Shown in pieces: positions 3,935-20,772 of a DNA stretch of 29,878 nucleotides. The notes beneath the pieces are model-generated. The model had not been told where the DNA came from, made no database searches, and worked only from the letters and a program-made list of their open reading frames with translations. The DNA lies in IMG/VR virus record IMGVR_UViG_3300013212_000039, positions 1 through 29,878 of that record. One strand, given 5' to 3'. This DNA is from a virus. Within the stretch, counting starts at the first letter, position 1, and every line of letters starts with the position of its first letter. The translations under genes were made by a program, and so were the position numbers.

Positions 3935-4359
3935 TGGGTATACCGAGCTCAGTACTTACACCAGATTCAGAAGGCTTTACCAGTACAGGTAGGTCTAAAG
4001 TATTCATAGACAACACACCTGTTACTCCTGGTGGTTCTGTTGAAATATACAATTACACGTTAAGTAGACAGATTAACATTACTGCGACAAAAACTATAAA
4101 TGACTACAACAGCGTACTTGTCTGCGATGCGACAGCTGCGGCTATTGTGTTGACATTTCCATCTGGTAAAACATCAGTTGGTAAGATGTTAATAGTTGCA
4201 AAAACAGATGCTACGGCTAATTCCGTAACCATTACTGGTATATCTGGCGAAACAATCTTTGCTCCTGCTGGATTTAGTGGGCTAACAACGCAATATGCAA
4301 CAGTGACATTTGTAGGTGTTGTTGTTGGAACTACTGGTGGATGGATGAAGGTGGTCTAA
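3934..4359 (+). CDS. Small beta-rich virion protein (decoration or tail-fibre-type domain)
   Basis: 141 aa. The start overlaps the preceding stop (TAATG), with GAGGT about six bases upstream. Residues about 40-141 (ITATKTINDYNSVLVCDATA ... LTFPSGKTSVGKMLIVAKTD ... VTITGISGETI ... STQYATVTFVG ... GGWMKVV) follow a pattern common in phage tail-fibre and decoration proteins: a strand-rich domain with 'LPSA..VGK.ITIKKTDASANTVTI' spacing and a terminal GGW. The N-terminal 35 residues are Pro/Ser/Thr-rich and may be a linker or attachment segment. Position between the tail protein and the ejection genes supports a virion role. Exact placement on the particle cannot be read from sequence. It has no enzymatic motif. 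Confidence 0.55.
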   Translation: MGIPSSVLTPDSEGFTSTGRSKVFIDNTPVTPGGSVEIYNYTLSRQINITATKTINDYNSVLVCDATAAAIVLTFPSGKTSVGKMLIVAKTDATANSVTITGISGETIFAPAGFSGLTTQYATVTFVGVVVGTTGGWMKVV

Positions 4360-5837
4360 TGAGTAATAATAATACAGGTTATCAATACGGTAATCAAGTT
4401 GCTAATGGATTTCAAGGTAGCGTAGCCGGTCCAACAGGTCAGTTTGCTGGAGTTAAACGGGCGTTAGGTTCTCCAGCTGGTCGAATGGGTACGCAAGCCC
4501 TTATGGGTATGCTGAATGGACAGAATCCCGGTCAAGCCGCACTTGGTGCTGGTATGGACTACGGTAAAAATGAATTAATGAAGTACGGAACCAAACAACT
4601 TCTTGGAGGTGCTTTAGGTGGTCAAGCTGCTGGATTCCTTGGTGGTCCGTACGGAATGCTTGCTATGGCTGCGTTGCCATATCTTGGTAAGGGAATAAGT
4701 AGTCTTGGTAAGTCACTAGGCATTGGTAAGAAGAGTGTTCCATCAGCACAAGACCTTGCAATGGGTGAAGCCAAGGGCAACCTAATGAATATGCGTGGGT
4801 CTTATGGGACAGACATGGGTACTGGTCAGGCAATGCTTGATAAGTACAATCCAATGCTTGAGTCTCAGATTGGTCGTATGCAAGAACTTGCTGATCGAGG
4901 ACTATCTACTGAATACAACACTAGACAAATGGCAGGTGCTGCAGCTAATACGGAAAATGCTCGACGAGCAGCAGAATCACGTATGCAAGCTACCGGCGGT
5001 ATGCTTGGTGGTGGACAAGCCTTGGCGGGATACGGCGGAATTAATCAAGCAGCTGTCGGAGGTATGGCACAAGGTGCATACAACGCCGCGCAAACCAACA
5101 TGAATAGCCAGCCGGGTTATATCAATCAGATGGCAGGAATGATTGGTGGTCAGATTAATCGTGGTCAAGGATTGTTTAATCAAGGCCGTCAAGGAATGAT
5201 GGGTCTTGACCAGAATTTGTACAATCTTAATGTTCAAGAGAAGGCTCGCGCTGATGCACTGAGTCAAGCAAACCGTGCTCGAGAAGCACAGATGATTGGC
5301 GGTGTTGCTAATCTTGCTGGTACAGCGGCAGGTATGGAACAGTCACGTAAACAAAACCGTGACTACATGAATATGTTGTACGGAGATACTAATACTTCTA
5401 AGTCAGGAAACAATCCAAGTGGAAGTGTTCCGCCAAACTTAAGTTTTAATGACACACCTATAAATCCTGATGGCAGCTATTCGGTATTGCCACCCGGTGA
5501 AGGCAGTACATCAGCAGTTCCATCTACAAATTTCCCTCAACCCGGTGATTTCGGATTTGACTCTGAGAGAGACGCACAAAACTACGACACAAATAGTAAT
5601 GAAATAAATTCACGTTCCACACCAGATTTTTTTAATGCACAGCAATTTGGTCAACAATTTACTTCTCCACCGCAAATGAGTAGTGCCGATTATCCACAAT
5701 TTTTACAACAGATGTTTCAAGGTAATACGAGACAGGATTATCCATACGAAGGTTCAAGAAGTGTAGACCCGCGCACATCAGCACAACATGCACAATACGT
5801 TCAGCAAATAATTCAACAACTTTTTGGAGGTAGATAG
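4359..5837 (+). CDS. Candidate ejection / internal virion protein 1 (T7 gp14-like by position)
   Basis: 492 aa from ATG 4359, which overlaps the upstream TAA as TAATG and has AAGGTGG about five bases before it. An in-frame ATG at 4341 would add six residues, but it overlaps the previous gene by 19 bases and is less well placed. The protein is extremely Gly/Ala/Gln/Met/Asn-rich. Residues about 75-120 form a hydrophobic glycine-rich stretch (GGALGGQAAGFLGGPYGMLA, then MAALPYLGKGISSLG) that could insert in a membrane. Residues about 130-330 are helical and Gln/Ala-rich (QNLYNLNVQEKARADALSQA). The C-terminal 150 residues are Pro/Ser/Asn/Gln-rich and probably disordered. This composition and order match the small internal proteins of podoviruses that leave the capsid first and build a channel across the envelope. 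The role is inferred; no catalytic motif is present. Confidence 0.55.
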   Translation: MSNNNTGYQYGNQVANGFQGSVAGPTGQFAGVKRALGSPAGRMGTQALMGMLNGQNPGQAALGAGMDYGKNELMKYGTKQLLGGALGGQAAGFLGGPYGMLAMAALPYLGKGISSLGKSLGIGKKSVPSAQDLAMGEAKGNLMNMRGSYGTDMGTGQAMLDKYNPMLESQIGRMQELADRGLSTEYNTRQMAGAAANTENARRAAESRMQATGGMLGGGQALAGYGGINQAAVGGMAQGAYNAAQTNMNSQPGYINQMAGMIGGQINRGQGLFNQGRQGMMGLDQNLYNLNVQEKARADALSQANRAREAQMIGGVANLAGTAAGMEQSRKQNRDYMNMLYGDTNTSKSGNNPSGSVPPNLSFNDTPINPDGSYSVLPPGEGSTSAVPSTNFPQPGDFGFDSERDAQNYDTNSNEINSRSTPDFFNAQQFGQQFTSPPQMSSADYPQFLQQMFQGNTRQDYPYEGSRSVDPRTSAQHAQYVQQIIQQLFGGR

Positions 5838-5839
5838 TC

Positions 5840-7477
5840 ATGGCACAAAACATGGGTTTTGGAAGTGCATTAACTGGATTTGGAACAGGATACCTTAACG
5901 CTTTAAAGCAAGGTCGTTCTGAGCAAAGCACACTACTCAATGCAAAACTCCGTAAGGATGCATTAGAACAAAGAAAGTCTGAGGCTGCCGCCGCTAATTC
6001 TTTACGTTCTATGCAAGTTGCAGACCATCTTGACGCTCGTGAAGATAGAAGGCAAGCCGGTAAAGACAGAGCCGCTAACGCTGGTAATAAGTTACTGTTT
6101 GGTGCTCATGCTAAAGTGTCTGATTTTTACACTAAGATGCAACCTAATATAGCGGCTATGAATCCAGAGCAACGCAAAACTACACATGACTCTATGAGGG
6201 CTAGTGTACGTGGAATGTTAGTTGCTGGCGGTATGGATAATAAGACCGCTGACGAGCAAGCTGAGTCTATTATCAAACCATACGGTGCGGCTCTTCAAGA
6301 TGAAATGATAGACATTAGCGTTGGGCCGGACATGAGTAAAGAAGGATTATTGTCACAAGGCATGGTTCCTCAATCCTCAATCGATGCACAATTTAGAGGT
6401 GCTGGTCCAGCTCCGGGAACAAACACAGAATTTCAGCTGCAACCTGACGGTACTTATGGACGTGTAGGAACACAAGCACTTGACACACCTGAACGCTCAT
6501 ATCTAGGTATGCAAAACTATCTTGGTGACATAGGCAATAACTTAACTCGAACCGCACTAGGAGGACGAGACCCAAGTGGTGGAAAAGGTTTTCAACAATA
6601 CCAAGACCCAACGTTTGGTGTAACTGAGCAACGTGCAGGTATTACTAAATCAGTTCCGGCTGCCGCAACGTATGGCATTGATTCAAAAACGCAATCACTT
6701 ATTGACAAGAATAATGCGGGTACAGGTCTAGCTAAAGTCCGAACTGAACAACTAATAAAACTTTTCCCTGATCAGGCTGCTTTTCTTAAAAAGAGAGTTG
6801 AAGCACTTGGTGCAAATATTATAGAGAAGGATACACGCACTAAATTTATTGGTCTTAATTACGATCTTGAGGTGCGTAAACTTGCAGCACAGACAGCACA
6901 TCAAAATGCTATGACCGCTATACAAGGTGGTCAGCTTTCTGTGGCACAACAAAATCTTGCACTTAGACAAGTTGGTTTACGACTAAAGGCAATCATTGAC
7001 CCTAACCGTATTGGTGCTAACGCTGGTGCTATTATTGCAGACTTGACTCAAGCAAAAGGAAAGCTTCCAAAGGGAGCAAGTAGTGCAACTCTTGACCAAC
7101 AGATTGCACGGATGCAACAACTTCAAAAGAACATGAAAACTTTTGAAGCAATGTCTACGCAAACACCGCAAGATTTGGCTAATGCAAATAAACTTGCCAG
7201 CGTACTTGGAGAAGGAATGCAAGGACTAGGTATTCTTGGTCAGTTATCAGGGCTGTCACCAAATACGGACGAAATGCGTATGAAAATCTATGGAGGAATG
7301 GCTCCTCAGAGTATTTTTGAAGACCCATTTATGACAGATGACGAATACTACGATGAACAGGATGCATTTGGTAATCATCCATTGGCATATCCAGGCCAAG
7401 CCGCTCGTAACTTTAACATCGGTGGGACTGGTGCTAGACCTATGTCTCCAAATGGTATGAGTATACCTTTTAGGTAA
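5840..7477 (+). CDS. Candidate ejection / internal virion protein 2 (T7 gp15-like by position)
   Basis: 545 aa. ATG 5840 has a strong Shine-Dalgarno GGAGGT at 5826-5831 and lies two bases after the previous stop. The N-terminus (MAQNMGFGSALTGFGTGYLN) is glycine-rich and amphipathic. It is followed by a long charged helical region rich in Ala/Gln/Arg/Lys (residues about 25-90). The middle has Gly/Pro/Gln-rich segments, and residues about 300-450 are again helical (LAKVRTEQLIKLFPDQAAFL, later LRLKAIIDPNRIG). The C-terminus is acidic and aromatic (MTDDEYYDEQDAFGN) and then Pro/Gly-rich. Length, composition and position between a gp14-like protein and a giant gp16-like protein suggest the second ejection protein of a podovirus-type set. 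I see no transglycosylase or peptidase motif. Function is inferred from context. Confidence 0.5.
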   Translation: MAQNMGFGSALTGFGTGYLNALKQGRSEQSTLLNAKLRKDALEQRKSEAAAANSLRSMQVADHLDAREDRRQAGKDRAANAGNKLLFGAHAKVSDFYTKMQPNIAAMNPEQRKTTHDSMRASVRGMLVAGGMDNKTADEQAESIIKPYGAALQDEMIDISVGPDMSKEGLLSQGMVPQSSIDAQFRGAGPAPGTNTEFQLQPDGTYGRVGTQALDTPERSYLGMQNYLGDIGNNLTRTALGGRDPSGGKGFQQYQDPTFGVTEQRAGITKSVPAAATYGIDSKTQSLIDKNNAGTGLAKVRTEQLIKLFPDQAAFLKKRVEALGANIIEKDTRTKFIGLNYDLEVRKLAAQTAHQNAMTAIQGGQLSVAQQNLALRQVGLRLKAIIDPNRIGANAGAIIADLTQAKGKLPKGASSATLDQQIARMQQLQKNMKTFEAMSTQTPQDLANANKLASVLGEGMQGLGILGQLSGLSPNTDEMRMKIYGGMAPQSIFEDPFMTDDEYYDEQDAFGNHPLAYPGQAARNFNIGGTGARPMSPNGMSIPFR

Positions 7478-7516: not shown

Positions 7517-10500
7517 ATGGACAGCAAATCGCGTTTTTCCAGAGCACTTCGTGAGTCTGATATTGTCAAGCAAACAGCCGCTGACAGTCGTAAAGGTTTT
7601 CCTAATTCTCGTGAAGGAATTAGAAAGCGTCTAGAACAAGGAACCGGCTACGATGATGTACTTATTACCGAAGACTTTACTAACTTAAAAGACTATGCCT
7701 TAGACAGTGGCTTCATAACAAAACAAGAAGCACAGCAAATTGCTACTCTCAAAGCAGATCGTGTAGCAACTCTTATTGCTGAAGGCAAAGGCAACCAGTT
7801 TGCAGGGCGTGAATTCCGCCCTGATATGTCACAACAGCAAGCATTAACCAAACGGCAGGAAATCGGGGCAGGTTACGCCGCACAAGCGCCTGTAGAGCGT
7901 CAAAAAGATATTGAACTCCTTGCCAAGATGGGCTACACACCTGAAGACGTAGCAAAGTTTGGAACAGACAGATCAGGATTCATCCCTGCCGGCGTTCCTA
8001 TATTTGGTGGGAACGAAGTTCCGTTTGCTTCTAAGTCATACTACGAAGACTTACCACGTAACTTAGGGATTCATGCATATCAAGGTGCTGTAGGTCTTGG
8101 TGCAACTGCTGAAGGTATGGTTGCTCCTGCTCGTGCACTGGCAACTCGTTTTACTGGCGGAGACCCTACACAGTTTTATGCCCCTAACGACAACCCGCTA
8201 ATTGAAGCAGGAACTATCTTTGGCTCTAATGCAGCTGAGAGTGCCGCTGGATTCCCTGCACGTTACGCCGGTATGCGTATTGGTGGTGAGTTAGGTTTCA
8301 AGGGTGGTATGGCACTTAGTGGTGGTAACCCACTTTGGGGCGGTGTCGGGGCTGTTGCTGGAGGTATGCTCGGTCAACTCGGCATGGGTCAGGCTATGGA
8401 GACCCTAAACGATGCAGCAATGAACGTCATTCTTGGGAAAGACAATGCCGCTCGTTTACAACAACGCAAGCAGGAACTATCTGAAGCGTATCCTCTTGCA
8501 TCCCGTGTTGGTGAGGAACTACCTGACCTTGCAATGTTCGGACCATCCTTTAAGGTAAAAGGATTCAGCGGTAAGGCGGCGGCTAAGGGATTTAAACAGG
8601 CTGGCATGAAGGGTCTGCGTCAGGGTGTAGTAAACACCACTGAGTTTGCAGGTGACCTTGCCGAGCGTGGTGGTGAGTCTGCACTCAACATGGTGCTGGC
8701 ATACAAGCAATCTCAAGACGAAAAGAAACTCGGTATGCCGGGTAAGTCTGCTTGGGACATCCTTGCTGAAGGTGCACTTGGTGCTGTCATGCAGGGCGAT
8801 ACAAAGTTAGGTCGTGCTGTCTATGGTGGTATGAACAGGCTGACTGACCCCGGCATGATTCAACAGGCAATCAATCGAACAGCGCCTGGCGCAATGCCTG
8901 AAGTTGGTGCTACGTCAATGTCTCCTGCGGTAGATACTGGCTCTGCTATGCGTCCCGGTATGCGTAGGTTTAACCTTGGTGGTCGCATTGAGAGTGGTGT
9001 AGATGCAGATGGTAGTCCAATCATCAAGGGTGCACGTTACGCTGTCTACGACCCAGAAACTCGTAAGGCACAGGTTTACACGGACAACGAGTTTGCTCTA
9101 GAAGGTACACGTACTCGCAAGGCAGCACAAAGTCTCCAAGGTACTAGCACAATCTTTAAGCGTCAACCTATTATTTCGTACGATGACAAAGTCGTTGGTG
9201 GTCAGCGTCAGATTCTAGGCATCACTCGAGATGCTGGTGTTCTTGTTCGTGATTACACTAACGATGGTAAGTCTACTATCTCCGCTGTTCCACTTAGTGA
9301 AATCCGTAATGCTAAGATTAACAAGCGTATCAATGAAGTCATTAAGAACCAAGGCGTAAAACCTAACTCACGACCAGCACCATTTATGCCTGAGTCGTTC
9401 ACTAACTTTAACCCAGTAGCGTTTCCTGACACAGTAACATTGACAACGGATTCACAGCCGATTCCTGCAAGAGTTGTAGAACGAATTGGAGGTAAAACGG
9501 ATGCTTCGTATATTGTTGCAATGCCTGATGGCACACACTTTCGCGCTCATGAATCACAGATCAATGTAGATAAGTTCACAGGTGGTGAACACATTACTCG
9601 TGGAGCAATGAAGGACACTGACTTCCCACGGTCATTGGCTGACCTTGCTCCAAAACGTGGTGGGCTGGAAGGTCTTGTTCGTATTGGAGAAGGCTCAGAC
9701 GCACCAAGCGTTGAACTGACTCCAACTCAACGCAAAGACTATCAGTCTATTGCTACAAAGTATCAACCAGATATCAATGCTATTAAGCGTGAACCAGACG
9801 CTACTCGTCGTGAACAGATGTTGGATATTGTTCAAGGCAAAATTGCTAACGAGTATCTTGCTACCAATCCAATACCTGCTCCGACTGGTACGTATAAAGA
9901 AGGTGACGTAGTTGATGTTAAGCTTTCACAGAAAAAATTTGTCGATAAGCCACAAACTGCTATTGTTACTGACGTTAACGATTATGGTTATGCTGTACGA
10001 CTGGTGGATCATCCCAACGTTGGCACATTTACAGTCCAAGATGCAAACGTTATGGGTGAATCTGAACTTGATATACGAGCTACTGGTTCTAACAAGGGAG
10101 TGGAATCTTTAGCTGCTGGTCGTATTTCTGCTGGTAATTCTACAGCCACTAGAGATAAAGGCGTACCTGCGGTGACTCGTGGCTATGCATCGACTGGCAT
10201 GGCTGCTACTGATGTTGCTACAGTCAGTGATGTGGCAAAGCATGTTGACTATGTTTCGTTGCCTGAAGATGTTCAACAGTCTATTCAAAAGCGTTTTAAG
10301 AAGGCTGTAGATGACGGTGAGGTTACGTCTGGTAATAGTATTGATTTTGTAGCACCGATAAAAGACGGCCAGCTACACGGTCAGATTCATGTTCATGCAC
10401 TTGACAATATGACCTTTCAGATTGTTGCGACTACCTTCCCTGAAGGCGGTGGTGCAATCAAAGATCAGTACGTCTCGTCGTACAACGTACGCTACAACCC

Positions 10501-13500
10501 TGATACCGATATGTGGGATGTCTACTCAGTTGACCCAGAGATGGCTAGGCGTATTAGTGAATCTGACGAAGCCGCATACATGGCTATCAGCCATCTGAAA
10601 AATGTTCGACCAGAAAATTTTGCGGAGACTCTTGCTAATCAAGGTGTAGATGCAAAAAACATTAAACTCATCAGTGATACATTTTTGGACGCTGTTAATA
10701 CAAAATTTTTAATACCAGAAAATTACAAAACTGCAGGAGATTATCAAAAACTACTCAAGCGTAATTTTCAAGACATAAAACTGGGTAAGTACATCAATGA
10801 ATTCGAAATTGATAAATACAATCCATCTCGTTATTACATCGACGTTTGGACTAAAACTCCGCTTGATATGTCTGACCCTGCTCAATTTGCACGAGCATCG
10901 GATGCTGGACGTCAAATTTACACGGCATTAAAATACGATCAAGGTGCTATAGCCAACCGAACTAATAGTAGACGTAAAGAGTCATTAAACGAATTAGTGG
11001 ATGCCGTTTACGCTGATGTAAAAAATGGTAATTTGACTTCTCTTGAATTTCAAATGTATTTCATGATGGCATCAAAATGGAATATTGACCCACGATTTGA
11101 TGAAAACAATAACGTCATTGTTAAATTAGCTGAGATATCTAAGAATAACGAAAGTCTACCTATTGTTTACAGTCAAGTTAATATTGTTGAATTTTCTAAC
11201 AACTTGCGCAACGGACAAAACCCTAAATCTGCATTTCTAAATGCGGCTATTACGTCCATGCAAAACAATATTAACTCACGTAACGTTCCATTAAATGGAT
11301 GGAAAACATACAAGGGTCGATCTAAAGACGTCAAAGAATTGATGCAAGACGTACAAGGAACAATCTGGTGTATTGCTAGTAGCGATCAATATGCAGACTC
11401 GTATTTATCCACTGGAGATTTTCATGTTTACTTTAATAACGGAAAACCAACAATAGCTTACGGTGGCGATAGTAATGGTATTTTTGAAGCGCCTCGTGGT
11501 AATCGTTCAAATCAGTCAGTTACAGCATTGGAATCGAAAATTTCTATTGACCATATGAAATCCATTGGTGCTGAGACAGGTTATGAAGACGACATTAAAG
11601 CCAATAAATCTGCAGCCAATATTATTGATGGAATAGGCACACAGGAAGATATTAATAATGTAAATCTTTTAAAATTTGTTAGTCTTCCTACTTATAACGC
11701 TGTTGATATCCTTGCTAATTTGCGTTTAGGGTATGAGTCAGATAGCGGTCAAAATAATACATATACTAATAAATATAGAGATCAGTCAGGAGCAAAATCA
11801 CAATTAACACTGCTTACAGAACTACCTGCGTTTAAAGAAAATTACAATAAGCTAGTTCCACCTAATAACCAAAAATTCAGCATTAACAATGTCAATACAA
11901 TTCAAGTTAATTCACCTGACGACTATGAATCTCTTAAAAGTATTTACAAAGATTTTATAAAAAATAAACCGGCCTCGAATGCCATTGAAATTTCAAGTGA
12001 CACACACTCTGTATATAATTTAGGTAGACAAGGAAGACAAGTATTTAACGCTTCTAGGTCAAGTCGGGATGTAATGGAACTTGCAACAAAGGTTGCCGAT
12101 AACAATCTTGGAATTAATACTGAGGATTTTGATGGAGATTTGTCATGGTTGCAATCTGCACACCACAATCCATTATTAATACACGTACCTCAATATGCAA
12201 AAAACAAAGTAATTAAACTATCTTCTGGTGGAGCTATAGGATTAGTAAACTCAACAAATAACATTGCTATAACGTTTACAGAACATTTTAACTCAAATTC
12301 AGCAAGATATATTAGTGTTGTACAAGGAGATTTTGCAACAACTTCAATAGTTGGAACTGAGGAAGATCATACAGATGTGACAATTGTTGCAAACAACGGA
12401 CTTGTAAATGTAATTGATTCAGTTATTGCCGAAGTAAAAGGCCGGGAATCTAAACTTGTTTTAGATAATTGTAAAACAAATTATTTAATATACGACCAAC
12501 AAGGTGCTGACTCTGATTTTGTAATTGATATTAATTTTAAAGGTGAAAATAAACCAAGTTTAAATCGTATTAGATTACTAGATAGTAAACCGACTGTTAT
12601 TAATCTGTCGAATGCAACTAATGATTTACCATTTCATATAATTGAATATCACGGTTCGATTGTAAATCGTATAACTGGCAATTATGAAATTGGAACTTAT
12701 TTTCCAGCATCGGAAACTGTTGACGTAAAAGAATATAAGTTACGTGTAAAAGTAGACACCATGTATCTTCCTGTTTCTATTGGTCACGCTAAAATTTCAA
12801 CCGATCAAGGAATTCGCCCGCCTCATATTACTATGGCTAATGATAGTCAAGCCCTTACCCTTAATGTAAGTGAAGGCGTTAACAACACACCTATTGAAAT
12901 TACTCGTAGACGTGGAGATACTTCACAAAATTCAATTATTATTAACGATAATGGATCTGGAAATTTCATACGAGTATATAACAATGGCACACCAAGGATG
13001 CGTTTTAAAGTTTATGGAAGTCAAAACAATAGTGTTTCTTTGTTCTACGGAAGAGGTATGGATTATCAAGTACTAGCACAAAAACGCAACGGTATGGTTT
13101 ACGTTAGTTTGGCAGACAACAATAGATTTACACTAAACTCAATCAAAGATGCGTTTAACAATCAAGACCCTATGGCGTCTGCGGCTATGTTTATTCATTC
13201 TGCAGCAATAAAGCAAGTTGTTTCGGCTCTTACCAAAGCAGAATTGTATGGCGATGTTAATACTTTTGTAGACTACGACTTAAGTAAAATCAATCTTGAA
13301 GTAAACATGGAAGAAATTCCAGATGATTTAAAAAATGCATTAATTAACTTTGATGACTTACACCCTAATTTCTTCCCGATGCCGGATCTTAATAACCACG
13401 GTTATAATTCATTGTTTGATAGTTCTGATGACATTCCGCTATTTAATAATGATGATACGACTGCTTCATCCGATGATGTAATAACACTTCCATTTGGACC

Positions 13501-16500
13501 AGCACCTACATCTAACCGTCTTCCTGCTGACGGTGGCGATGAGGCTGCATACCAAGAGATTGACGATGCAGGTGCTACTCCATCTAAGACTCCTAAAAAG
13601 GTTTCTGCTGGATACAAACTACAAGGTTCTTTCCGTGTGTCTGTTCCTACTTCACAGTTGCGTCGATACCGTGAGGAAGTCAACAAGCTTTCAATCCAGC
13701 ATGGTGTTGACTCAGACGCATACAAAAAGGCAATGAAAAAGCTTGATGCGCAATATCGTGACCTTATTAGTCAGGCTAGTACACAGGTGTTGGCAATCAT
13801 CAATAAGATTGCAACTGAGCAACGTCCTAACGTAACTGGCTATCAGCAAAAAGATACAACTGCAGCACGTATTGGATATGCAATCAAGTCTATTGATCGT
13901 AACTTCAATAACCTACCTAAGCCTTCTGGAGATGCTCCTGACAATCGTCTTGGCACATACAAGATGATGTTCAATGCATTAGGCGAAGACTATTCGGTCG
14001 ATGCATTTCGTGTAAGCAATCGTGCACAACTCAAGACTGTCCTACAAAAGCAGTACGTATACGATGCTACGAATGCTGGTCGTGTAGCAGAAGTAGTTGA
14101 TCGTTTTGCTCGAGCATGGGCTATGGGTAAAATTCAAGCTCAAGGATTCCGACCAACGGAAATTGTAGAGGTAACAGGCAAGCTTGCTGAAAACATTCTT
14201 GAGACTGGTGCATACAACACTCCATCATCTGACATGCTATTTCAGCATTTTCCTGGTGGTTCAAAAGCTGAAACAAAACTTGTTGCACAGTATATGCGTG
14301 AGTTTTACGAAGAGCGCTTTGCTGCCTTTGGTGTTCTCGATGACGCATACGACTTTACTAAAAAGTTCCGTGGAGCAATCTTCCGCACCAACAAATCTAA
14401 AGATGACGCCATCTTCAATGTGATTGTTGGTTTTGCATCTCGTGACGAAACCACAGGTATACATGAAATAGCTCACGCACTTTACCGTGGCATGGGTTAT
14501 CCATTCCAAAGAAAAATTGCAGAAGCAATGGGTGTTAATCCAGCAACCCTTAACTCAACTGCTATGAAGGGTCGAGTTCCTGTTTGGGTGGAGGAGAAAT
14601 GGGCTGCTGCATTTGAAGGCTCACTCCGTGCAGGAGTAGCACCACAAGCTAGAGATGTAAATGACTCTACACGTCCACGTCAACAAGATCCTACACTTGC
14701 ACAACTGTGGACGGAACTAGGCGGCTTTCTTACTGGAGCACGTAACGCTACGATTAAAAAGCAGATTGCAAGCGGTGAGATACCAGAATGGGGTAAAGAT
14801 CAAAAGGGAACCCGATGGGTTGCTAGGTTTAAAGCAGCAGACAAACTTTACCGAGGTAATGAACTCGAGCTCAACAATGGACAGTTTGTCACAGTAAACG
14901 CCACTCAAGCAGCCGCTGGTGAACCTGTACAAGTAGTAGATGTTGATAGCGGAAAAGTATCTACTGTAGCAGTTGATGACATCAAACGATACTCCGGTCG
15001 TGTTCCTTCTGGTTTTAATGATGCAACTCTTGACACGTTGTCTAACTGGCTGCGTAGTTACTACGGCAACACAGAGCGTAACATCCGTACAACACTACCT
15101 GACATGGTTTCTCATTATGTTGGTGGTGAAGTAGACCTTGGACAACTCCGAGCTGAAGCAACCAATCCTCAGAAGATAGCCTTCCAAGAAACAATGGATG
15201 AGCCACGCTCACCACTTCTTAGTTCGTTGTCTCGTATGAGTAGCGTACAGGCTGGACTTAAGTCTCTTCTGGCAAACAACCGTTTGGATATTGGCAACAA
15301 GGGTACAGTCAAAAACGCTTACGACAGATACGGTAAGCCATCTAACTCATTCCGTGTGTTGCGTGACGTATACGGATTTGACGGAAACACCGCAGCTGCT
15401 TACTACGCTCAGACTGAAACACCTGAGTTTAAAAAGTGGTCTGAAAACTTGCCGTTACTTGAGGCAGTCAATAGTATTCAGGTCTCACCCGACATTGACA
15501 TGAACAAGATGTCTTCTGAAGAGCGTGTAAACTATCGCCGTTATGAAGCAGGTAACGAACTTGCTAACCTTGCATCTGACATTATGCGTGATGGAGCAGA
15601 TGACAATGACGTCGATAAGTTTGTAGACTTGGCTGACCAGTACTATCGTAATGATGGTCGCAGTCAAAAGGAAATCAGGAATGCTGTTGAGCAGATTGTA
15701 AATGCAAATGAGGATGACAACGTACAGCAGCTCATGTCTTTTGAATCTACTTTGCGTCGAGAATTGGAAACCTCAGAAGACTTTGATCAGGCTCGTAAAG
15801 TTACGGTTACACCCGATGAATATCGGATTGCTGCACATACGCCTAGAACAGGTAAAGGGTTTGTCACTGTATCTTTCCCTGCAATGGAATCTTCTAATCT
15901 CATCCGGTCGAAGAATGGTGTGGTTCTTACCTCTGGCGTTACCTCATTCGATGGTAACCGCCAAGGTGGTGAGTACATCAAGTTTAAAAATCCACAGGTT
16001 GTAAACCTTGAGGGTCAGGGTATTGACCAACAGAATCTTGACCGCATCATAGCAAATGCCACCAAGGCAAAGCGTGATGGTGTAGTAATACTAAACTTAC
16101 GTCACAGCAATACTGTCAACTCTGCATTGCACAATGTAGCTGTACCAATTACCAAGTATCCAACCAAGTCTATTGTTGCAGTACCCGGTGTAGATATTGG
16201 TACGTACTTTAGTGGAGGCGGAACACTTGAAGCAAGCGTGTATGAATCTGTATTCCCTACAGTTGCAGTTGAATACAACGCTGAGATTGCATCTGTCTAT
16301 CGTGCTAACCTAGGTGACCACGTACAGGTTAAAGATGTACAGGAAATTGACCCGACTAGTCTAAAGAATGTCCAGTGGTTCCATGCATCACCAGTATGTA
16401 AGAACTTCTCTGATGCCAGCCCAAATGCTGTTGAGACTATTCTTGATAAGAAGACAGGAAAGGCTGTTGTAGATGCTATTGATCATAGCCATCCGCCTAT

Positions 16501-19500
16501 CGTCACTATTGAGAATGTAGCCAAGTATCGTGAAAGTGAAAGCTTTGACGCTATTCTTGAAGCCCTTCGTCGTAATGGTTACGAGTTTGATTTTGGAGTT
16601 TACAAGACGTCTAAGTATGGCGGTGGTACTAGCCGTCAAAGATTGATTGTACGTGCGGTGCGTGGCTTCGCTCTACCTCCAATCATAAAGACTGATGCCT
16701 CTCAGCGCACTTGGTATGAGTCAATCAAGGACATCATCGACACGTTGCCAATCAGTGAGCTTGCACCAAATCAGTTGCGTAAATTGGAAGCATCTAAGAT
16801 TGACGTACGGGCTATGAAGACACCTCTTCTCTTCAGCCAGAACAGTTACCATGCGGTCGGTATTACAGCAGATAAGGTGTTCCCATCGTTTACTACAAGT
16901 GGTGGAACGTACCGTATCCTGATGCCGGGTGGACAGGTACGTGCTATTACAGGCATTGCATTCCGTAGGATGATGGGTCTTCCAGATGCATATCTGCTTC
17001 CAGAATCCGAGCCACTTGCACGTAAGATTCTTGCTAACGGTGTACCGGCTGAGTTGTCTCAAACCATCATGGCTCCCCTTGCTGATGCATATGCTCGGCA
17101 TAACATGACTCGTATGGCTCAACGAGAGATGCGCCGTCGAGATACAGATGACGAAGCTGCTTATCAAGAAATGGATAATGAACCACGTAAATCGTATGGT
17201 TCTTTCACGGACTTTGTAGTTGGTATTAATACGGCGTTACGAAATAACAATTTACCAATGGTAACTGACAGAACCATTCGTTTTTGGATTAGCAAAAACC
17301 AAGTAAGCAACGGCGTAAAGTCCGGTCGGGCAATGACGTACAGCCAAACAAATGTCAATGAAGTAGTCCAGCTTGTTAAAGATAAGCAAGCTCAAGAAAC
17401 TAGAAACCTTGTAAATGTAGATGGCAAACAAACCTATCCATCTAATCTTTATGAGCAGCCGACATTTACATCGATTGAAGAATTCACTGTTGCAGTAAAT
17501 CAATTCCTTGAGATTGCTGGAGCTCAACCAATCAATGAAAGACTAATACGTTATTACGTAGCAGAAGGATTGTTACCACAAACCACGGAGCGTCAAGGTA
17601 AAGCAAAAGTATGGACACGAGAACACTTGGAACGTACGGCTGAACTTGCTGTTCAATCGCAAGATTACAAGTATCGAACAGAGCAAAGTAAATTGCAACG
17701 TGCACAACAAGAACTGCAAGCAAAAACAGAACAACCAGTTCAACCTGAACCAGTTCGTCCTGAAAATGCTAGACCAATGTCGTATGAAGATATTGTTTAT
17801 AAGGCTAATGTTGAATTACGAAAATTAGGGTTGGAATACGTTACAAAACGAACACTTATGCTTTGGGGTGAAAAAGGAAAAATTAGCAGACCAAATGTTA
17901 TCAGTCAAAAAGCGGTATTCAATTCTAATATTATTGATGAAATCATCAAGGTTAGAAAGCCTAACCCAATAAAAGGATACACAGGTGATCAACTAATTTT
18001 AAAAGCAAACGAGCAGCTTATTAAACTTGGTTTACCAGTTGCTACTGATCGTGCTTTAAGGTTCTGGCTGTCTAGTGGCAGTATTGCAAAACCAGAAAAG
18101 GTTGGAAAATCCTACCTCTTTGGTGATGACGATATTGAAGCAATCGTAAAGATACGGCGTAGTCAAGCACGAGACACAGGTGATGAGGCTGCGTATCAGG
18201 ACGCGGATGACTTGTTCCCATCGCAGCGACGTACAGTTGAAACGTACGATATGCCGGGTGCACCATCTCACGTTGAACGTATCCGTCCTAAGCAGTTGCC
18301 TCCACGTAATGCTTGGTTCTGGGGTGCTATCGATCTGTACAACGACATCACTCGTCTTCCACTCTCTGGTGACCTTGCATTCCAAAACCTACAGGGTGGA
18401 ATCATTGGTCTAAGTAATCCGCTGGTTGGTCTCAAAGCTTTTAAAGCTGGTTTAAAAGGCTTTGCTCCAAACATGCAAGTTGAAGTTGGTGGAAAGTTAT
18501 ATGGCAGTCGTAAGTTTGGTCGTGAAACGTATCATGCCGCAGGTGAGGAGATGCGCCGTCACCCACTGTACAACGCTGCTAAAGAGGCTGGTCTTCCATT
18601 GGCTATGTTTGAAATCGACGCAAGACTACAAGAAGCAAGGGAGATTGAACTCAGTAATTTGAAGATGAGTAACCCTAACGCAACGATGAAGGATGTCAAT
18701 ATTGGATTGATGGACATCGATGAATTGGGTACGGTTGACGAGTGGTACAGCAAGAACCGTATTACTAGGCACTTGCCAATGCAGGGACAGTTTGAACGGT
18801 TTAACAGCCTTGTACACGACACATTGCTTCTTACACAGTTTGATAACTGGGCAAAGATATTGTTGTCAAAAGGATATTCACCAACCTCTACAATGTACAA
18901 GAATGCACTCAAAGATTCAGCACGAATCTTAGCCGTGTCTGTTGGAGACATTAAGTATTCAACTAATCCAGAGACTGACGCAGCTGCATCACGTATTGCT
19001 AAAATCTTCTTTACTGCTCCTCGGTGGTTGATGAGTCGCGCACTTATTGACCCATTTGTTAACCAGATGGTTAGCAACAGCAGTATTTTTGCAAGACTGC
19101 GTGAAATTATGGGTGAAGATAACCCTGCGTTTAACCTTTACAACGGTGATAAGGAAGTTGCTAAACTCGGACAGAGTATGTGGCTCCGTATTGCTGCGGC
19201 AGAAGCAATGCTTGCCATCATGGCATGGGTGTTTTCTAATTGGTATGCAGATACAGAAGTCAATACAGATATACAACCGGGACGTATTCGTATAGGTGAT
19301 TTCCAGATTGACCCAGCAGCAGGTTTGATTGACCACTACAAGTTAGCTGGGCGTATTGCCAAGGCTGTGTTCAGCGTTGACCCAAAAGATGCATCAAGGG
19401 CTGAGAAAGAAGGCATTCCACAATGGATGTTGGCAGTCAAAGACATCAGCAAGGAACTAAGTTACAAGGCCTCACCTGGTATTACATTCCTTCAGGCAAT

Positions 19501-19993
19501 CAGTGGAAGCAACGACCTAAAAGCACAATCAGATAACTTCTTCACTGCTCCGTGGGAAGCAAAATCATTGAACGTAGTTGGTGAACCACTGTTTGAACGC
19601 AGTGCATCCGCCAAGATTTTCTACGAGATGATTCGCCCTCGATTGCGTGAGTTGTTTGGTGATGCTGTAGCAGATGACCTTCCAATCAGCAACATGATGA
19701 TGGATCGTATTCCAATGGCTTTACCCGGATTTGTTGAGTCGTTTGCCGCGGCCAAAGAATATGATCGTGACCCGTGGCTATATGCAATGGCTGATACGAT
19801 TCCTAACTTCTTTGGATTCAAGATTGACGTCATGCCGACCGAAGCACGTAAAGACAGAGCCAAAGACAAGAACACGTCAACTGCACAAGAATCACCAACA
19901 CTTTTGCGGTTGCTTGCTGAAGGTAGAGCCAGCGAAGCATTCACTGGTACGATGAAGTCATCACCTCCGTCAGGAAATGTAAGCCCATGGTAA
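7517..19993 (+). CDS. Giant multidomain polyvalent virion/ejection protein (4158 aa)
   Basis: This is the largest gene of the window, starting at ATG 7517 after a 39-base gap with only a weak Shine-Dalgarno. Order by residue: 1-470, helical N-terminus with glycine-rich hydrophobic stretches (GGVGAVAGGMLGQLGMG) like membrane-interacting ejection proteins; 470-1016, small beta domains including TYKEGDVVDVKLSQKKF; 1017-2007, AT-rich module with W1284-C1285 and GDFHVYF; 2030-2310, helical; 2316-2320, HEIAH; 2635-2888, ADP-ribosyltransferase-like; 2885-3205, C5 cytosine methyltransferase; 3226-3550, four MerR-like HTH repeats; 3565-4158, C-terminal region of a type seen in large phage polyvalent proteins (LPLSGDLAFQNLQGG, FFTAPRWLMSR) with a possible membrane segment near 3890-3911. 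DEAAYQ-type motifs lie at 1017, 2008, 3212 and 3556. Proteins of this class are carried in the virion and injected, where their domains are proposed to counter host defences. Packaging here is inferred from gene order. Confidence 0.75.
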   Translation: MDSKSRFSRALRESDIVKQTAADSRKGFPNSREGIRKRLEQGTGYDDVLITEDFTNLKDYALDSGFITKQEAQQIATLKADRVATLIAEGKGNQFAGREFRPDMSQQQALTKRQEIGAGYAAQAPVERQKDIELLAKMGYTPEDVAKFGTDRSGFIPAGVPIFGGNEVPFASKSYYEDLPRNLGIHAYQGAVGLGATAEGMVAPARALATRFTGGDPTQFYAPNDNPLIEAGTIFGSNAAESAAGFPARYAGMRIGGELGFKGGMALSGGNPLWGGVGAVAGGMLGQLGMGQAMETLNDAAMNVILGKDNAARLQQRKQELSEAYPLASRVGEELPDLAMFGPSFKVKGFSGKAAAKGFKQAGMKGLRQGVVNTTEFAGDLAERGGESALNMVLAYKQSQDEKKLGMPGKSAWDILAEGALGAVMQGDTKLGRAVYGGMNRLTDPGMIQQAINRTAPGAMPEVGATSMSPAVDTGSAMRPGMRRFNLGGRIESGVDADGSPIIKGARYAVYDPETRKAQVYTDNEFALEGTRTRKAAQSLQGTSTIFKRQPIISYDDKVVGGQRQILGITRDAGVLVRDYTNDGKSTISAVPLSEIRNAKINKRINEVIKNQGVKPNSRPAPFMPESFTNFNPVAFPDTVTLTTDSQPIPARVVERIGGKTDASYIVAMPDGTHFRAHESQINVDKFTGGEHITRGAMKDTDFPRSLADLAPKRGGLEGLVRIGEGSDAPSVELTPTQRKDYQSIATKYQPDINAIKREPDATRREQMLDIVQGKIANEYLATNPIPAPTGTYKEGDVVDVKLSQKKFVDKPQTAIVTDVNDYGYAVRLVDHPNVGTFTVQDANVMGESELDIRATGSNKGVESLAAGRISAGNSTATRDKGVPAVTRGYASTGMAATDVATVSDVAKHVDYVSLPEDVQQSIQKRFKKAVDDGEVTSGNSIDFVAPIKDGQLHGQIHVHALDNMTFQIVATTFPEGGGAIKDQYVSSYNVRYNPDTDMWDVYSVDPEMARRISESDEAAYMAISHLKNVRPENFAETLANQGVDAKNIKLISDTFLDAVNTKFLIPENYKTAGDYQKLLKRNFQDIKLGKYINEFEIDKYNPSRYYIDVWTKTPLDMSDPAQFARASDAGRQIYTALKYDQGAIANRTNSRRKESLNELVDAVYADVKNGNLTSLEFQMYFMMASKWNIDPRFDENNNVIVKLAEISKNNESLPIVYSQVNIVEFSNNLRNGQNPKSAFLNAAITSMQNNINSRNVPLNGWKTYKGRSKDVKELMQDVQGTIWCIASSDQYADSYLSTGDFHVYFNNGKPTIAYGGDSNGIFEAPRGNRSNQSVTALESKISIDHMKSIGAETGYEDDIKANKSAANIIDGIGTQEDINNVNLLKFVSLPTYNAVDILANLRLGYESDSGQNNTYTNKYRDQSGAKSQLTLLTELPAFKENYNKLVPPNNQKFSINNVNTIQVNSPDDYESLKSIYKDFIKNKPASNAIEISSDTHSVYNLGRQGRQVFNASRSSRDVMELATKVADNNLGINTEDFDGDLSWLQSAHHNPLLIHVPQYAKNKVIKLSSGGAIGLVNSTNNIAITFTEHFNSNSARYISVVQGDFATTSIVGTEEDHTDVTIVANNGLVNVIDSVIAEVKGRESKLVLDNCKTNYLIYDQQGADSDFVIDINFKGENKPSLNRIRLLDSKPTVINLSNATNDLPFHIIEYHGSIVNRITGNYEIGTYFPASETVDVKEYKLRVKVDTMYLPVSIGHAKISTDQGIRPPHITMANDSQALTLNVSEGVNNTPIEITRRRGDTSQNSIIINDNGSGNFIRVYNNGTPRMRFKVYGSQNNSVSLFYGRGMDYQVLAQKRNGMVYVSLADNNRFTLNSIKDAFNNQDPMASAAMFIHSAAIKQVVSALTKAELYGDVNTFVDYDLSKINLEVNMEEIPDDLKNALINFDDLHPNFFPMPDLNNHGYNSLFDSSDDIPLFNNDDTTASSDDVITLPFGPAPTSNRLPADGGDEAAYQEIDDAGATPSKTPKKVSAGYKLQGSFRVSVPTSQLRRYREEVNKLSIQHGVDSDAYKKAMKKLDAQYRDLISQASTQVLAIINKIATEQRPNVTGYQQKDTTAARIGYAIKSIDRNFNNLPKPSGDAPDNRLGTYKMMFNALGEDYSVDAFRVSNRAQLKTVLQKQYVYDATNAGRVAEVVDRFARAWAMGKIQAQGFRPTEIVEVTGKLAENILETGAYNTPSSDMLFQHFPGGSKAETKLVAQYMREFYEERFAAFGVLDDAYDFTKKFRGAIFRTNKSKDDAIFNVIVGFASRDETTGIHEIAHALYRGMGYPFQRKIAEAMGVNPATLNSTAMKGRVPVWVEEKWAAAFEGSLRAGVAPQARDVNDSTRPRQQDPTLAQLWTELGGFLTGARNATIKKQIASGEIPEWGKDQKGTRWVARFKAADKLYRGNELELNNGQFVTVNATQAAAGEPVQVVDVDSGKVSTVAVDDIKRYSGRVPSGFNDATLDTLSNWLRSYYGNTERNIRTTLPDMVSHYVGGEVDLGQLRAEATNPQKIAFQETMDEPRSPLLSSLSRMSSVQAGLKSLLANNRLDIGNKGTVKNAYDRYGKPSNSFRVLRDVYGFDGNTAAAYYAQTETPEFKKWSENLPLLEAVNSIQVSPDIDMNKMSSEERVNYRRYEAGNELANLASDIMRDGADDNDVDKFVDLADQYYRNDGRSQKEIRNAVEQIVNANEDDNVQQLMSFESTLRRELETSEDFDQARKVTVTPDEYRIAAHTPRTGKGFVTVSFPAMESSNLIRSKNGVVLTSGVTSFDGNRQGGEYIKFKNPQVVNLEGQGIDQQNLDRIIANATKAKRDGVVILNLRHSNTVNSALHNVAVPITKYPTKSIVAVPGVDIGTYFSGGGTLEASVYESVFPTVAVEYNAEIASVYRANLGDHVQVKDVQEIDPTSLKNVQWFHASPVCKNFSDASPNAVETILDKKTGKAVVDAIDHSHPPIVTIENVAKYRESESFDAILEALRRNGYEFDFGVYKTSKYGGGTSRQRLIVRAVRGFALPPIIKTDASQRTWYESIKDIIDTLPISELAPNQLRKLEASKIDVRAMKTPLLFSQNSYHAVGITADKVFPSFTTSGGTYRILMPGGQVRAITGIAFRRMMGLPDAYLLPESEPLARKILANGVPAELSQTIMAPLADAYARHNMTRMAQREMRRRDTDDEAAYQEMDNEPRKSYGSFTDFVVGINTALRNNNLPMVTDRTIRFWISKNQVSNGVKSGRAMTYSQTNVNEVVQLVKDKQAQETRNLVNVDGKQTYPSNLYEQPTFTSIEEFTVAVNQFLEIAGAQPINERLIRYYVAEGLLPQTTERQGKAKVWTREHLERTAELAVQSQDYKYRTEQSKLQRAQQELQAKTEQPVQPEPVRPENARPMSYEDIVYKANVELRKLGLEYVTKRTLMLWGEKGKISRPNVISQKAVFNSNIIDEIIKVRKPNPIKGYTGDQLILKANEQLIKLGLPVATDRALRFWLSSGSIAKPEKVGKSYLFGDDDIEAIVKIRRSQARDTGDEAAYQDADDLFPSQRRTVETYDMPGAPSHVERIRPKQLPPRNAWFWGAIDLYNDITRLPLSGDLAFQNLQGGIIGLSNPLVGLKAFKAGLKGFAPNMQVEVGGKLYGSRKFGRETYHAAGEEMRRHPLYNAAKEAGLPLAMFEIDARLQEAREIELSNLKMSNPNATMKDVNIGLMDIDELGTVDEWYSKNRITRHLPMQGQFERFNSLVHDTLLLTQFDNWAKILLSKGYSPTSTMYKNALKDSARILAVSVGDIKYSTNPETDAAASRIAKIFFTAPRWLMSRALIDPFVNQMVSNSSIFARLREIMGEDNPAFNLYNGDKEVAKLGQSMWLRIAAAEAMLAIMAWVFSNWYADTEVNTDIQPGRIRIGDFQIDPAAGLIDHYKLAGRIAKAVFSVDPKDASRAEKEGIPQWMLAVKDISKELSYKASPGITFLQAISGSNDLKAQSDNFFTAPWEAKSLNVVGEPLFERSASAKIFYEMIRPRLRELFGDAVADDLPISNMMMDRIPMALPGFVESFAAAKEYDRDPWLYAMADTIPNFFGFKIDVMPTEARKDRAKDKNTSTAQESPTLLRLLAEGRASEAFTGTMKSSPPSGNVSPW
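10565..10588 (+). repeat. DEAAY linker motif, copy 1 (left edge of AT-rich module A)
   Basis: Encodes DEAAYMAI at residues 1017-1024, preceded by Ser-Glu-Ser. It shares DEAAY with the three stronger copies but has Met in place of Gln and no trailing acidic pair. The AT-rich region begins immediately after it. It is the weakest copy and could be chance. Confidence 0.4.
10565..13534 (+). other. AT-rich module A inside the giant gene (residues 1017-2006)
   Basis: Base composition drops sharply here: 12241-12300 has 15 G/C of 60, against 31 of 60 at 8281-8340 in the same gene. The frame stays open throughout, so it is coding. The encoded segment is Asn/Ile/Lys-rich. Residues about 1265-1335 contain GWKTYKGRSKDVKELM, then W-C (1284-1285), YLSTGDFHVYFNNGKPTIAY and APRGNRSNQ. 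From memory this resembles an uncharacterised domain with 'GWCTA ... L..GDFYVY ... IAEIRG..NQ', which in other proteins is often followed by repetitive beta structure. Residues about 1570-1860 here are indeed strand-rich (VVQGDFATTSIVGTEEDHTD, IVANNGLVNVIDSV) and could form a beta-solenoid. No function is assigned. The module starts and ends at DEAAY-type motifs. Confidence 0.6.
13538..13564 (+). repeat. DEAAYQ linker motif, copy 2 (right edge of AT-rich module A)
   Basis: Encodes DEAAYQEID at residues 2008-2016, preceded by DGG and followed by a Gly/Ala/Pro/Lys linker. Base composition returns to the gene's normal level just after it. Confidence 0.7.
14462..14608 (+). other. Putative zinc metallopeptidase motif in the giant protein (residues 2316-2364)
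   Basis: The encoded peptide has HEIAH at 2316-2320 (pattern HExxH), preceded by ETTGI and followed by ALYRGMGYPF. About 40 residues later comes EEKWAAAFE, with Glu 2359, 2360 and 2366 as candidates for the third zinc ligand. HExxH plus a downstream helix with Glu is the gluzincin arrangement, and metallopeptidase domains of this sort are an established component of phage polyvalent proteins. A peptidase could process the giant protein itself or cut a host protein. HExxH also occurs by chance in very long proteins; the helical context and the Glu-containing segment make chance less likely. Confidence 0.5.
15419..16180 (+). other. ADP-ribosyltransferase-like segment in the giant protein (residues 2635-2888)
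   Basis: The segment opens with TPEFKKW (2635-2641), a typical opening of ADP-ribosyltransferase domains in phage polyvalent proteins ('TPEFKxWFGDS'). It ends with YIKFKNPQVVNLEG (from 2820), an Ala/Lys-rich helix, then DGVVILNLRHS (from 2854) and ALHNVAVPI. The order 'KNP.VV..G ... A...GYDGVI..N ... VV' is characteristic of the C-terminal half of those domains. The R/H-S/Y-E catalytic triad cannot be placed with confidence; YR at 2769-2770 is one candidate. The domain may be degenerate or a divergent variant. This is a similarity call by eye. Confidence 0.35.
16169..17130 (+). other. C5-cytosine DNA methyltransferase domain in the giant protein (residues 2885-3205)
   Basis: The conserved motifs of m5C methyltransferases appear in order: motif I (SAM binding) DIGTYFSGGGTLEAS from 2893; motif IV SPVCKNFS with the catalytic cysteine C2961; motif VI ENV at 2999-3001; motif VIII SRQRLIV with Q3041, R3042; then a target-recognition-like stretch (about 3100-3130, FTTSGGTYRI) and motif IX/X material including ANGVP at 3173-3177. 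Length (about 320 aa) is normal for a compact enzyme. Motif IV has PVC where most relatives have PPC[QE], and motif I has YFSGGG instead of LFAGxGG, so it is divergent but keeps Cys and ENV. It could protect incoming phage DNA from restriction. No separate methyltransferase gene is seen elsewhere in the window. Confidence 0.8.
17150..17176 (+). repeat. DEAAYQ linker motif, copy 3 (left edge of MerR module)
   Basis: Encodes DEAAYQEMD at residues 3212-3220, preceded by RRRDTD and followed by NEPRKS. It lies between the methyltransferase domain and the first MerR-like repeat. Codons differ from copies 2 and 4 at most third positions, so the repeat is conserved in protein more than in DNA. Confidence 0.75.
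17192..18166 (+). other. Four tandem MerR-like helix-turn-helix repeats in the giant protein (residues 3226-3550)
   Basis: Four units of about 63-75 aa occur at about 3226-3295, 3315-3380, 3421-3483 and 3487-3550. Each has an N-terminal helix with 'N..L...GLP', a recognition-type segment and a wing. The aligned segments are RTIRFWISKNQVSNG, RLIRYYVAEGLLPQ (R3342), RTLMLWGEKGKISRP and RALRFWLSSGSIAKP (R3512), followed by 'G+...Y/F' and a closing I/V-rich helix. The second unit is close to the textbook MerR consensus (R-x-IRYYxxxGLLP). A Gln/Pro/Glu-rich linker separates units 2 and 3. MerR-type HTHs bind DNA; here they sit next to a DNA methyltransferase inside a presumed virion protein. The DNA is more AT-rich than its surroundings (21-22 G/C of 60 in sampled lines) and DEAAYQ motifs flank it on both sides. 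Confidence 0.65.
18182..18208 (+). repeat. DEAAYQ linker motif, copy 4 (right edge of MerR module)
   Basis: Encodes DEAAYQDAD at residues 3556-3564, preceded by RDTG, which is close to the RDTD before copy 3. It lies between the fourth MerR-like repeat and the C-terminal polyvalent region. Composition becomes less AT-rich after it. Confidence 0.75.
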
Positions 19994-20772
19994 ACAAATA
20001 CGGTAAGCGCTTCGTAGAGCTCGCATCCAAGTATGTGGGCGTAACAGAAGAACCACTAGGAAGCAATCGTGGTACACGCATAGACCAATGGAACACCGCA
20101 GTAGGTGTTCCAGTTGGTTCATTCTGGTGTGCTAGCTTTGTTAGTGCAGTCGTGCGTGACTTTCAAAAGTCAGGTATTGACTTCCCGTTACAGCAATCAG
20201 CAAGTTGCGATTCATGGTTGAAGCAAGCCAAAGTCAATGGAATGACGTCTATTAAACCTGAGACGGGTTCATTGTTTCTTATCTGCCCGTCACCAAACGA
20301 TGCTACACACATCGGTATCGTTGGTAATAATGTTGATGGTGTCTGGCATACCATTGAAGGTAACTCCAACATGGGTGGCAGTCGCAACGGCACAGCCGTT
20401 GTCAACAGACCTAATGGTATCAATCGAACCAACATCATCTACGTAAACTGGATGAGTCGTATTGAGGAAGCAAATGAAATGCCTTGGCATGTCGTGTTCC
20501 CCAATACAACCATAGAAGCAGTAAACGTAAGTGGAGCAACTTACATACCGCTGCGAGCAGCCATCGTTGCCTGTGATGGTAACTATGACTTACTCACCTA
20601 CGATGGACAACCACTGTATCGAGGTAGCAAGGTTCCTTGCAAGATGGTTGTACTGAACGGTAAGACTCACGTACCTGTCAGGCAGTTTATGCACTGGGCT
20701 GACCTTGATTTTGAGGTGTTGTCTGCAACACAGACAATCAAAGTACTTCCCGGTGACGAACCTTGGATTTAA
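19987..20772 (+). CDS. Endolysin: CHAP/NlpC-type peptidase with a C-terminal stalk-like (copper amine oxidase N-terminal-like) domain
   Basis: 261 aa. ATG 19987 overlaps the giant gene's stop as ATGGTAA. Residues 1-150 are a papain-like peptidoglycan hydrolase: FWCASFV with catalytic Cys48, ATHIGIV with His108, and HTIEGNSN with Glu124/Asn126 as third residue. Enzymes of this type cut peptide cross-bridges or the amide bond in cell walls. No signal peptide is present, so release would need a holin that I do not see in the window. Residues about 175-255 contain ATYIPLRAAIVACDG and KTHVPVRQFMHWADLDFEVL ending TIKVLP, two units of the 'YVPLR.. ...V.W......I.V' pattern of stalk domains, which are common in envelope-associated proteins of Firmicutes. 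That part probably targets the wall. It is the last gene of the plus-strand block; the enzyme class is well supported and exact bond specificity is unknown. Confidence 0.8.
   Translation: MVNKYGKRFVELASKYVGVTEEPLGSNRGTRIDQWNTAVGVPVGSFWCASFVSAVVRDFQKSGIDFPLQQSASCDSWLKQAKVNGMTSIKPETGSLFLICPSPNDATHIGIVGNNVDGVWHTIEGNSNMGGSRNGTAVVNRPNGINRTNIIYVNWMSRIEEANEMPWHVVFPNTTIEAVNVSGATYIPLRAAIVACDGNYDLLTYDGQPLYRGSKVPCKMVVLNGKTHVPVRQFMHWADLDFEVLSATQTIKVLPGDEPWI

Follow-up and report, generated by a model that had tools for sequence, protein, structure and literature searches.

An uninterrupted 12.5-kb reading frame in a viral DNA record raises the question of whether it encodes one genuine protein of 4158 amino acids and, if so, what an assembly of unrelated domains in a single chain would do for the virus. 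The DNA analysed here, referred to as the window, is the whole 29,878-base IMG/VR virus record IMGVR_UViG_3300013212_000039 (positions 1-29,878), and the virus is probably a short-tailed member of the tailed phages. Phages and conjugative elements encode polyvalent proteins, which join zincin, methyltransferase and ART domains in one chain and for which packaging and delivery together with the DNA have been predicted (Iyer et al. 2017, PMC5512222). The explanation that we favour, and hold to be probable, is that the window encodes a giant polyvalent protein that would be packaged and ejected with the DNA, and whose conserved backbone carries two linker-edged exchangeable modules.

The giant gene and its recognisable domains

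The giant gene (7517-19993, + strand), described in the preliminary description of this DNA as one uninterrupted frame, is indeed open throughout and is also present in two other IMG/VR contigs, L002 and L003, each from another metagenome. The L002 homologue (4431 amino acids, on a contig of 54.6 kb) and the L003 homologue (4072 amino acids, with its 5′ end cut off) both have open frames, and the family as it stands has three members, two of which (L002 and L003) are close to each other. Backbone identity between the window and these relatives is about 83-87% for nucleotides and 86-94% for amino acids. Since the frame is open in both relatives and the backbone is conserved, the gene is real and under purifying selection; an artefactual frame is ruled out by its being open in three contigs.

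A tblastn search of 50,697 phage records gave matches confined to the methyltransferase part of the giant protein, and relaxed searches of the phage records with four slices of the protein returned chance-level matches only. Two pattern-based scans of a prokaryote genome collection did not find the giant protein, and queries with DnaB, the N-terminal part, the C-terminal part, the core and module 1, together with the two genome scans, yielded no closer relatives. The DnaB helicase gene, intact in the window and L003, is seemingly frameshifted in L002 (24651-25703, − strand), where the window's DnaB, used as a tblastn query, matches in separate pieces (1-346 and 348-440) that lie in different frames. 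The features of the window on which the argument rests are as follows.

4341-7477, + strand: proteins of 498 and 545 amino acids, both cysteine-free, upstream of the giant gene
7517-19993, + strand: giant-protein gene, 4158 amino acids; homologues open in L002 and L003
7517-10564, + strand: N-terminal backbone, residues 1-1016; cysteine-free, with a hydrophobic Gly/Ala-rich stretch at about 190-320
10565-10582, + strand: linker copy 1, DEAAYM, residues 1017-1022; divergent, bordering module 1 on its left
10607-13525, + strand: variable module 1, residues 1031-2003; GC 0.346, 18-46% amino acid identity to relatives
11369-11371, + strand: Cys1285 in module 1, part of a 'WC' that is invariant; present in all three relatives
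12170-13117, + strand: half of module 1 (residues about 1552-1867) that a low-confidence model shows as beta-rich and possibly solenoid-like
13538-13567, + strand: linker copy 2, DEAAYQEIDD, residues 2008-2017
14414-14641, + strand: putative zincin, HEIAH (2316-2320) with distal EExxA; motif only
15737-16186, + strand: part of the segment earlier called ART-like, residues 2741-2890; no profile or tblastn match
16193-17071, + strand: m5C DNA methyltransferase domain, residues 2893-3185; Pfam, PHROG and motif alignment
16397-16399, + strand: Cys2961, predicted methyltransferase nucleophile (SPVCKNFS); sole cysteine within residues 2008-4158
17150-17179, + strand: linker copy 3, DEAAYQEMDN, residues 3212-3221
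17201-18175, + strand: module 2, four MerR-type HTH units; Pfam MerR_1/MerR and held-out unit HMMs
18182-18211, + strand: linker copy 4, DEAAYQDADD, residues 3556-3565
18215-19990, + strand: C-terminal backbone, residues 3567-4158; cysteine-free
19987-20772, + strand: endolysin (phrog_9589, E 6e-9), overlapping the stop of the giant gene

Residues 2899-3185 match Pfam PF00145 (DNA_methylase) at E 1.6e-18, and the domain matches PHROG_116 at E 1.2e-27, which bears out the full m5C motif set noticed earlier at residues 2893-3177. The features taken to define a C5-cytosine DNA methyltransferase (motif I FxGxG, motif IV PC with the catalytic cysteine, ENV, QxRxR and motif X) are found as FSGGG, SPVCKNFS, ENV, TSRQR and NGVP, in alignment with the enzymes of Planktothrix phage PaV-LD and Bacillus phage phi3T. 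The domain has a single cysteine, the nucleophile Cys2961, compared with five to nine in free-standing relatives; that cysteine has been shed elsewhere but kept at the nucleophile argues for a working methyltransferase. A second, free-standing m5C methyltransferase of 564 amino acids with nine cysteines is encoded on L002's contig (L016:5179-6873, − strand; PHROG_116, E 1e-87), in a region that the window stops short of, and the giant protein is therefore not necessarily the sole source of methylation.

For the peptidase-like domain proposed at residue 2316, the motif stood and the profile evidence did not. HEIAH, with EExxA about 45 residues downstream as a plausible third ligand, is conserved in all three giant proteins, and shuffling the protein gives an expectation of 0.03 HExxH motifs per copy. 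The MPTase-PolyVal model (PF18818) gives no match to the giant protein at E ≤ 10, and it also misses BcepIL02 with its HEAFH motif; a structure model of residues 2007-3204 was unusable (mean pLDDT 33). The segment at 2635-2888 had been called ART-like, an identity that was dropped: ART-PolyVal (PF18760) gives no match at E ≤ 10, Pfam and PHROG give none of significance, tblastn finds no relative among the 50,697 phages, and by eye the C-terminal half alone resembles ARTs. The N- and C-terminal regions, previously assigned to an ejection or polyvalent type, gave no family match in HMM searches. An LPD38 C-terminus, BcepIL02-like by eye, was rejected when hhalign and the LPD38 model PF18857 gave nothing; PF18857 has no match in G000 or G001, and the giants of four other phages match it at E<1e-35.

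Exchangeable modules and the linker peptide

The giant protein is a cassette array in which a backbone carries two exchangeable modules bounded by linker copies. In a codon alignment of L002 and L003, nucleotide identity is 93-97% in the backbone and 45-64% in module 1, and at each edge of the module the drop lies no more than about eight codons from a linker. Module 2 (residues 3225-3550) shows 41-43% nucleotide identity between the window and L002/L003, and its flanks about 85%. Both modules are GC-poorer than their flanks in all three phages; in the window the values are 0.346 for module 1 and 0.388 for module 2, against 0.45-0.48 for the flanks. The 545-amino-acid protein encoded upstream (5840-7477) is 57% identical to that of L002, compared with 80-90% for most other genes, and it may co-vary with the giant protein.

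In the window, module 2 consists of four MerR-type HTH units (residues 3229-3289, 3306-3385, 3413-3486 and 3481-3553), in agreement with the four MerR-like HTHs previously placed at 3226-3550. Pfam MerR_1 matches the module in three stretches (E 1e-12). When an HMM built from three units was used to search for the remaining fourth, units 1, 3 and 4 were recovered at E 1.9e-11, 6.6e-9 and 8.2e-13, so that three of the four lie below 1e-8; unit 2 reached E 0.31 only and is matched by Pfam MerR instead. In both relatives this module is made up of a T4-Pnk-like kinase (AAA_33, E 1.7e-14; PDB 1ly1, E 3.5e-5) that an additional linker copy separates from an array unlike the window's, whose MerR match is weak (E 0.0011) and falls short of Pfam's cut-off. 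The P-loop kinase domain is thus shared between T4 polynucleotide kinase and the L002/L003 module, whereas the window's protein has no kinase. Because the methyltransferase is kept at 94% amino acid identity in the relatives while the MerR array is replaced, the array is no fixed part of the methyltransferase.

Module 1 has a first half that contains GTIWCIAS, with the invariant Cys1285, followed by conserved D1301, E1324, R1327 and H1346. The cysteines common to all three relatives are Cys1285 and the nucleophile Cys2961, with no others. Since cysteines kept in a depleted protein point to active sites, Cys1285 is, by analogy with Cys2961, a candidate active-site residue, and the first half of the module is possibly an unrecognised cysteine enzyme. 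The structure model of module 1 (pLDDT 48.6; best PDB match E 1.1) gives a hint of what may possibly be a beta-solenoid.

The linker has the consensus (D/E)xAAYQExDD, with copies at the edges of both variable modules and five copies in each relative. The chance that four random positions in 4158 residues would each fall within 16 residues of one of four edges is about one in a million. When the window's three DEAAYQ copies are compared pair by pair, 11 of 18 third codon positions are different and every first and second position is the same; the codons vary and the peptide is constant, which indicates selection on the linker peptide and not a recently copied DNA repeat. A role as a DNA recombination repeat is ruled out for recent events by the same codon differences. 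None of these phages' other proteins contains the linker, which gives no indication of a shared head protease, and no comparable repeated linkers were seen in the four other giant proteins tested. When viral contigs were scanned for the linker as degenerate DNA, the hits were the two relatives already known and three short ORFs, unrelated and matching by chance. The score of an extra degenerate linker at residue 2552 (KIAFQETMDEPR) falls within the shuffle range in the window (7.3) and at its edge in the relatives (12.5), and this copy is not claimed.

Cysteine depletion and probable carriage in the virion

The giant protein contains three cysteines in 4158 residues, against a cysteine content of 1.59% for non-virion genes of the window (P about 7e-25). 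The ejected virion RNA polymerases of N4-like phages are without cysteine, a property that has been tied to passage through the tail and periplasm (PMC3715699, PMC3915230, PMC2784036). The giants of BcepIL02 and of the Vibrio and Planktothrix phages have none, and that of a Bacteroides phage has 8 in 5481 residues. The cysteine-free polyvalent giants, of 2803-4667 residues, lie at L020 16609-30612 (Burkholderia), L021 6849-15260 (Planktothrix) and L023 7326-16718 (Vibrio). Ejected proteins may in general be marked by a lack of cysteine, and the 498- and 545-amino-acid proteins upstream of the giant gene are probable ejection proteins.

The giant gene is the last of the virion module and is followed directly by the endolysin gene, whose product (window 19987-20772) has a weak copper-amine-oxidase-N-like match at its C-terminus (Pfam E 0.03). 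On the L002 contig the order is TerL, portal (phrog_156), major head protein (phrog_212), phrog_399, phrog_240 and, further on, the giant gene and endolysin; the head families phrog_399 and phrog_240 are common to this phage and BcepIL02, whose DarB-like gene (4667 amino acids) is also the last of its virion module. At this position BcepIL02 and related phages have DarB-like proteins of 4.5-4.7 thousand residues. In JC1 the counterpart gp69 (4515 amino acids) was detected in virions by mass spectrometry with 51 peptides (PMC9144972). Because the gene closes the virion module, the protein is depleted of cysteine, and a Bcep22-like giant at the same position occurs in virions, the giant protein would, by analogy, travel in the virion and be ejected together with the DNA, a conclusion that is indirect but well supported.

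Comparison with known systems and possible modes of action

A polyvalent protein joins several unrelated effectors in one chain of a phage with portal and terminase, and the chain described here joins the methyltransferase, the MerR array and the putative zincin, with a kinase in the relatives. It shares with the surveyed polyvalent proteins (PMC5512222) this union of unrelated enzymes, but matches none of the tested LPD38, MPTase-PolyVal and ART-PolyVal models. The main text of that survey contains neither 'MerR' nor 'linker', and linker-bracketed exchange was not found described in it; judged by title and abstract, none of the open-licence papers found on 'polyvalent protein', phage and MerR describes such a protein. 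The Bcep22-like DarB giants (BcepIL02 gp70, JC1 gp69) are alike in size (4.1-4.7 thousand amino acids), in having few or no cysteines, and in position as the last virion-module gene near the lysis genes, and the phages share two head-protein families. They differ in carrying other enzymes and domains (SLT, Eco57I-type methyltransferase, helicase, LPD3, LPD38) without repeated linkers, and neither blastp nor hhalign detected significant similarity between the window's giant and BcepIL02 gp70. The N4 virion RNA polymerase is likewise a giant, cysteine-depleted, ejected enzyme, but it is an RNA polymerase with no known methyltransferase or HTH array and is packaged unprocessed despite a peptidase domain (PMC5512222). 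Phage P1 Dar likewise provides virion-carried protection of incoming DNA and differs in comprising several separate proteins.

The earlier proposal of a virion-carried counter-defence array is strengthened by the gene's position, the depletion of cysteine, the Bcep22-like counterpart and the real methyltransferase and MerR domains; its ART component has fallen away and its peptidase stands at motif level. The best reading, which is partly supported, is that of a polyvalent (Dar-like) counter-defence protein carried in the virion. The protein would be packaged in the virion and ejected together with the DNA, its backbone providing an N-terminal ejection or packaging part, the putative zincin, the m5C methyltransferase and a C-terminal part. 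The methyltransferase would mark or protect incoming DNA against restriction, and the MerR array, or the module in its place, would have nucleic acid as its target, either holding the protein on DNA or redirecting transcription. Module 1, as the most variable part, probably faces a fast-changing host target. The linkers would join the modules and may be sites of cutting. The methyltransferase and HTH domains, the module borders and their exchange, the constant linker peptide with its varied codons and the scarcity of cysteine are read from the sequences themselves, and these modes of action are inferred.

That the giant protein is not ejected at all, but is a cytoplasmic or structural protein whose domains serve another purpose, is improbable: several parts have no recognised domain, as such a reading would allow, yet cysteine is depleted as in known ejected giants, the gene lies in the virion module, and the catalytic cysteine and motifs of the methyltransferase are retained. 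MerR HTHs are usually those of transcription regulators, and the array may bind host or phage promoters and redirect transcription at entry with no guidance of the methyltransferase. This is a possibility short of probable; replacement of the array in relatives that keep the methyltransferase fits it, whereas the position of the array directly after the methyltransferase does not, and no effector-binding or dimerisation domain was recognised.

The function of the linkers allows two further readings. Compatible with ejection of a polyvalent protein is cleavage, tentatively proposed, into some five pieces (N-part, module 1, zincin-methyltransferase core, HTH array and C-part), either by the putative zincin of the same chain or by a different protease; the pieces would be packaged as such or released in the host. 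A constant peptide with saturated codons, a copy at every variable-module edge with another between kinase and array in the relatives, and a putative peptidase in the same chain speak for cleavage, as does the processing that P1 DarA is believed to undergo (PMC9024508). However, the N4 polymerase remains uncut in the virion, the motif is absent from these phages' other proteins, copy 1 reads DEAAYM rather than DEAAYQ, and the zincin is recognised at motif level only. Mere flexible hinges or insertion-tolerant joints, copied at module insertion and left uncut, have a nearly even chance of being the explanation; the linkers are acidic, probably unstructured and always between domains, but a neutral joint would not need A-Y-Q-E kept through saturated synonymous change. 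It is rather unlikely that one peptide is both the border of module exchange between strains and a cut or recognition site of the delivered chain, as interchangeable multi-effector delivery would have it.

The giant protein that we favour, packaged and ejected with its exchangeable modules, would represent a natural design for swappable effectors within an injected phage protein. Its linker is a short peptide that may be a processing or docking signal, and the cysteine pattern allows ejected proteins to be tested for inexpensively from sequence. If a virion-borne m5C methyltransferase does act on DNA as it enters, that would be an anti-restriction route.
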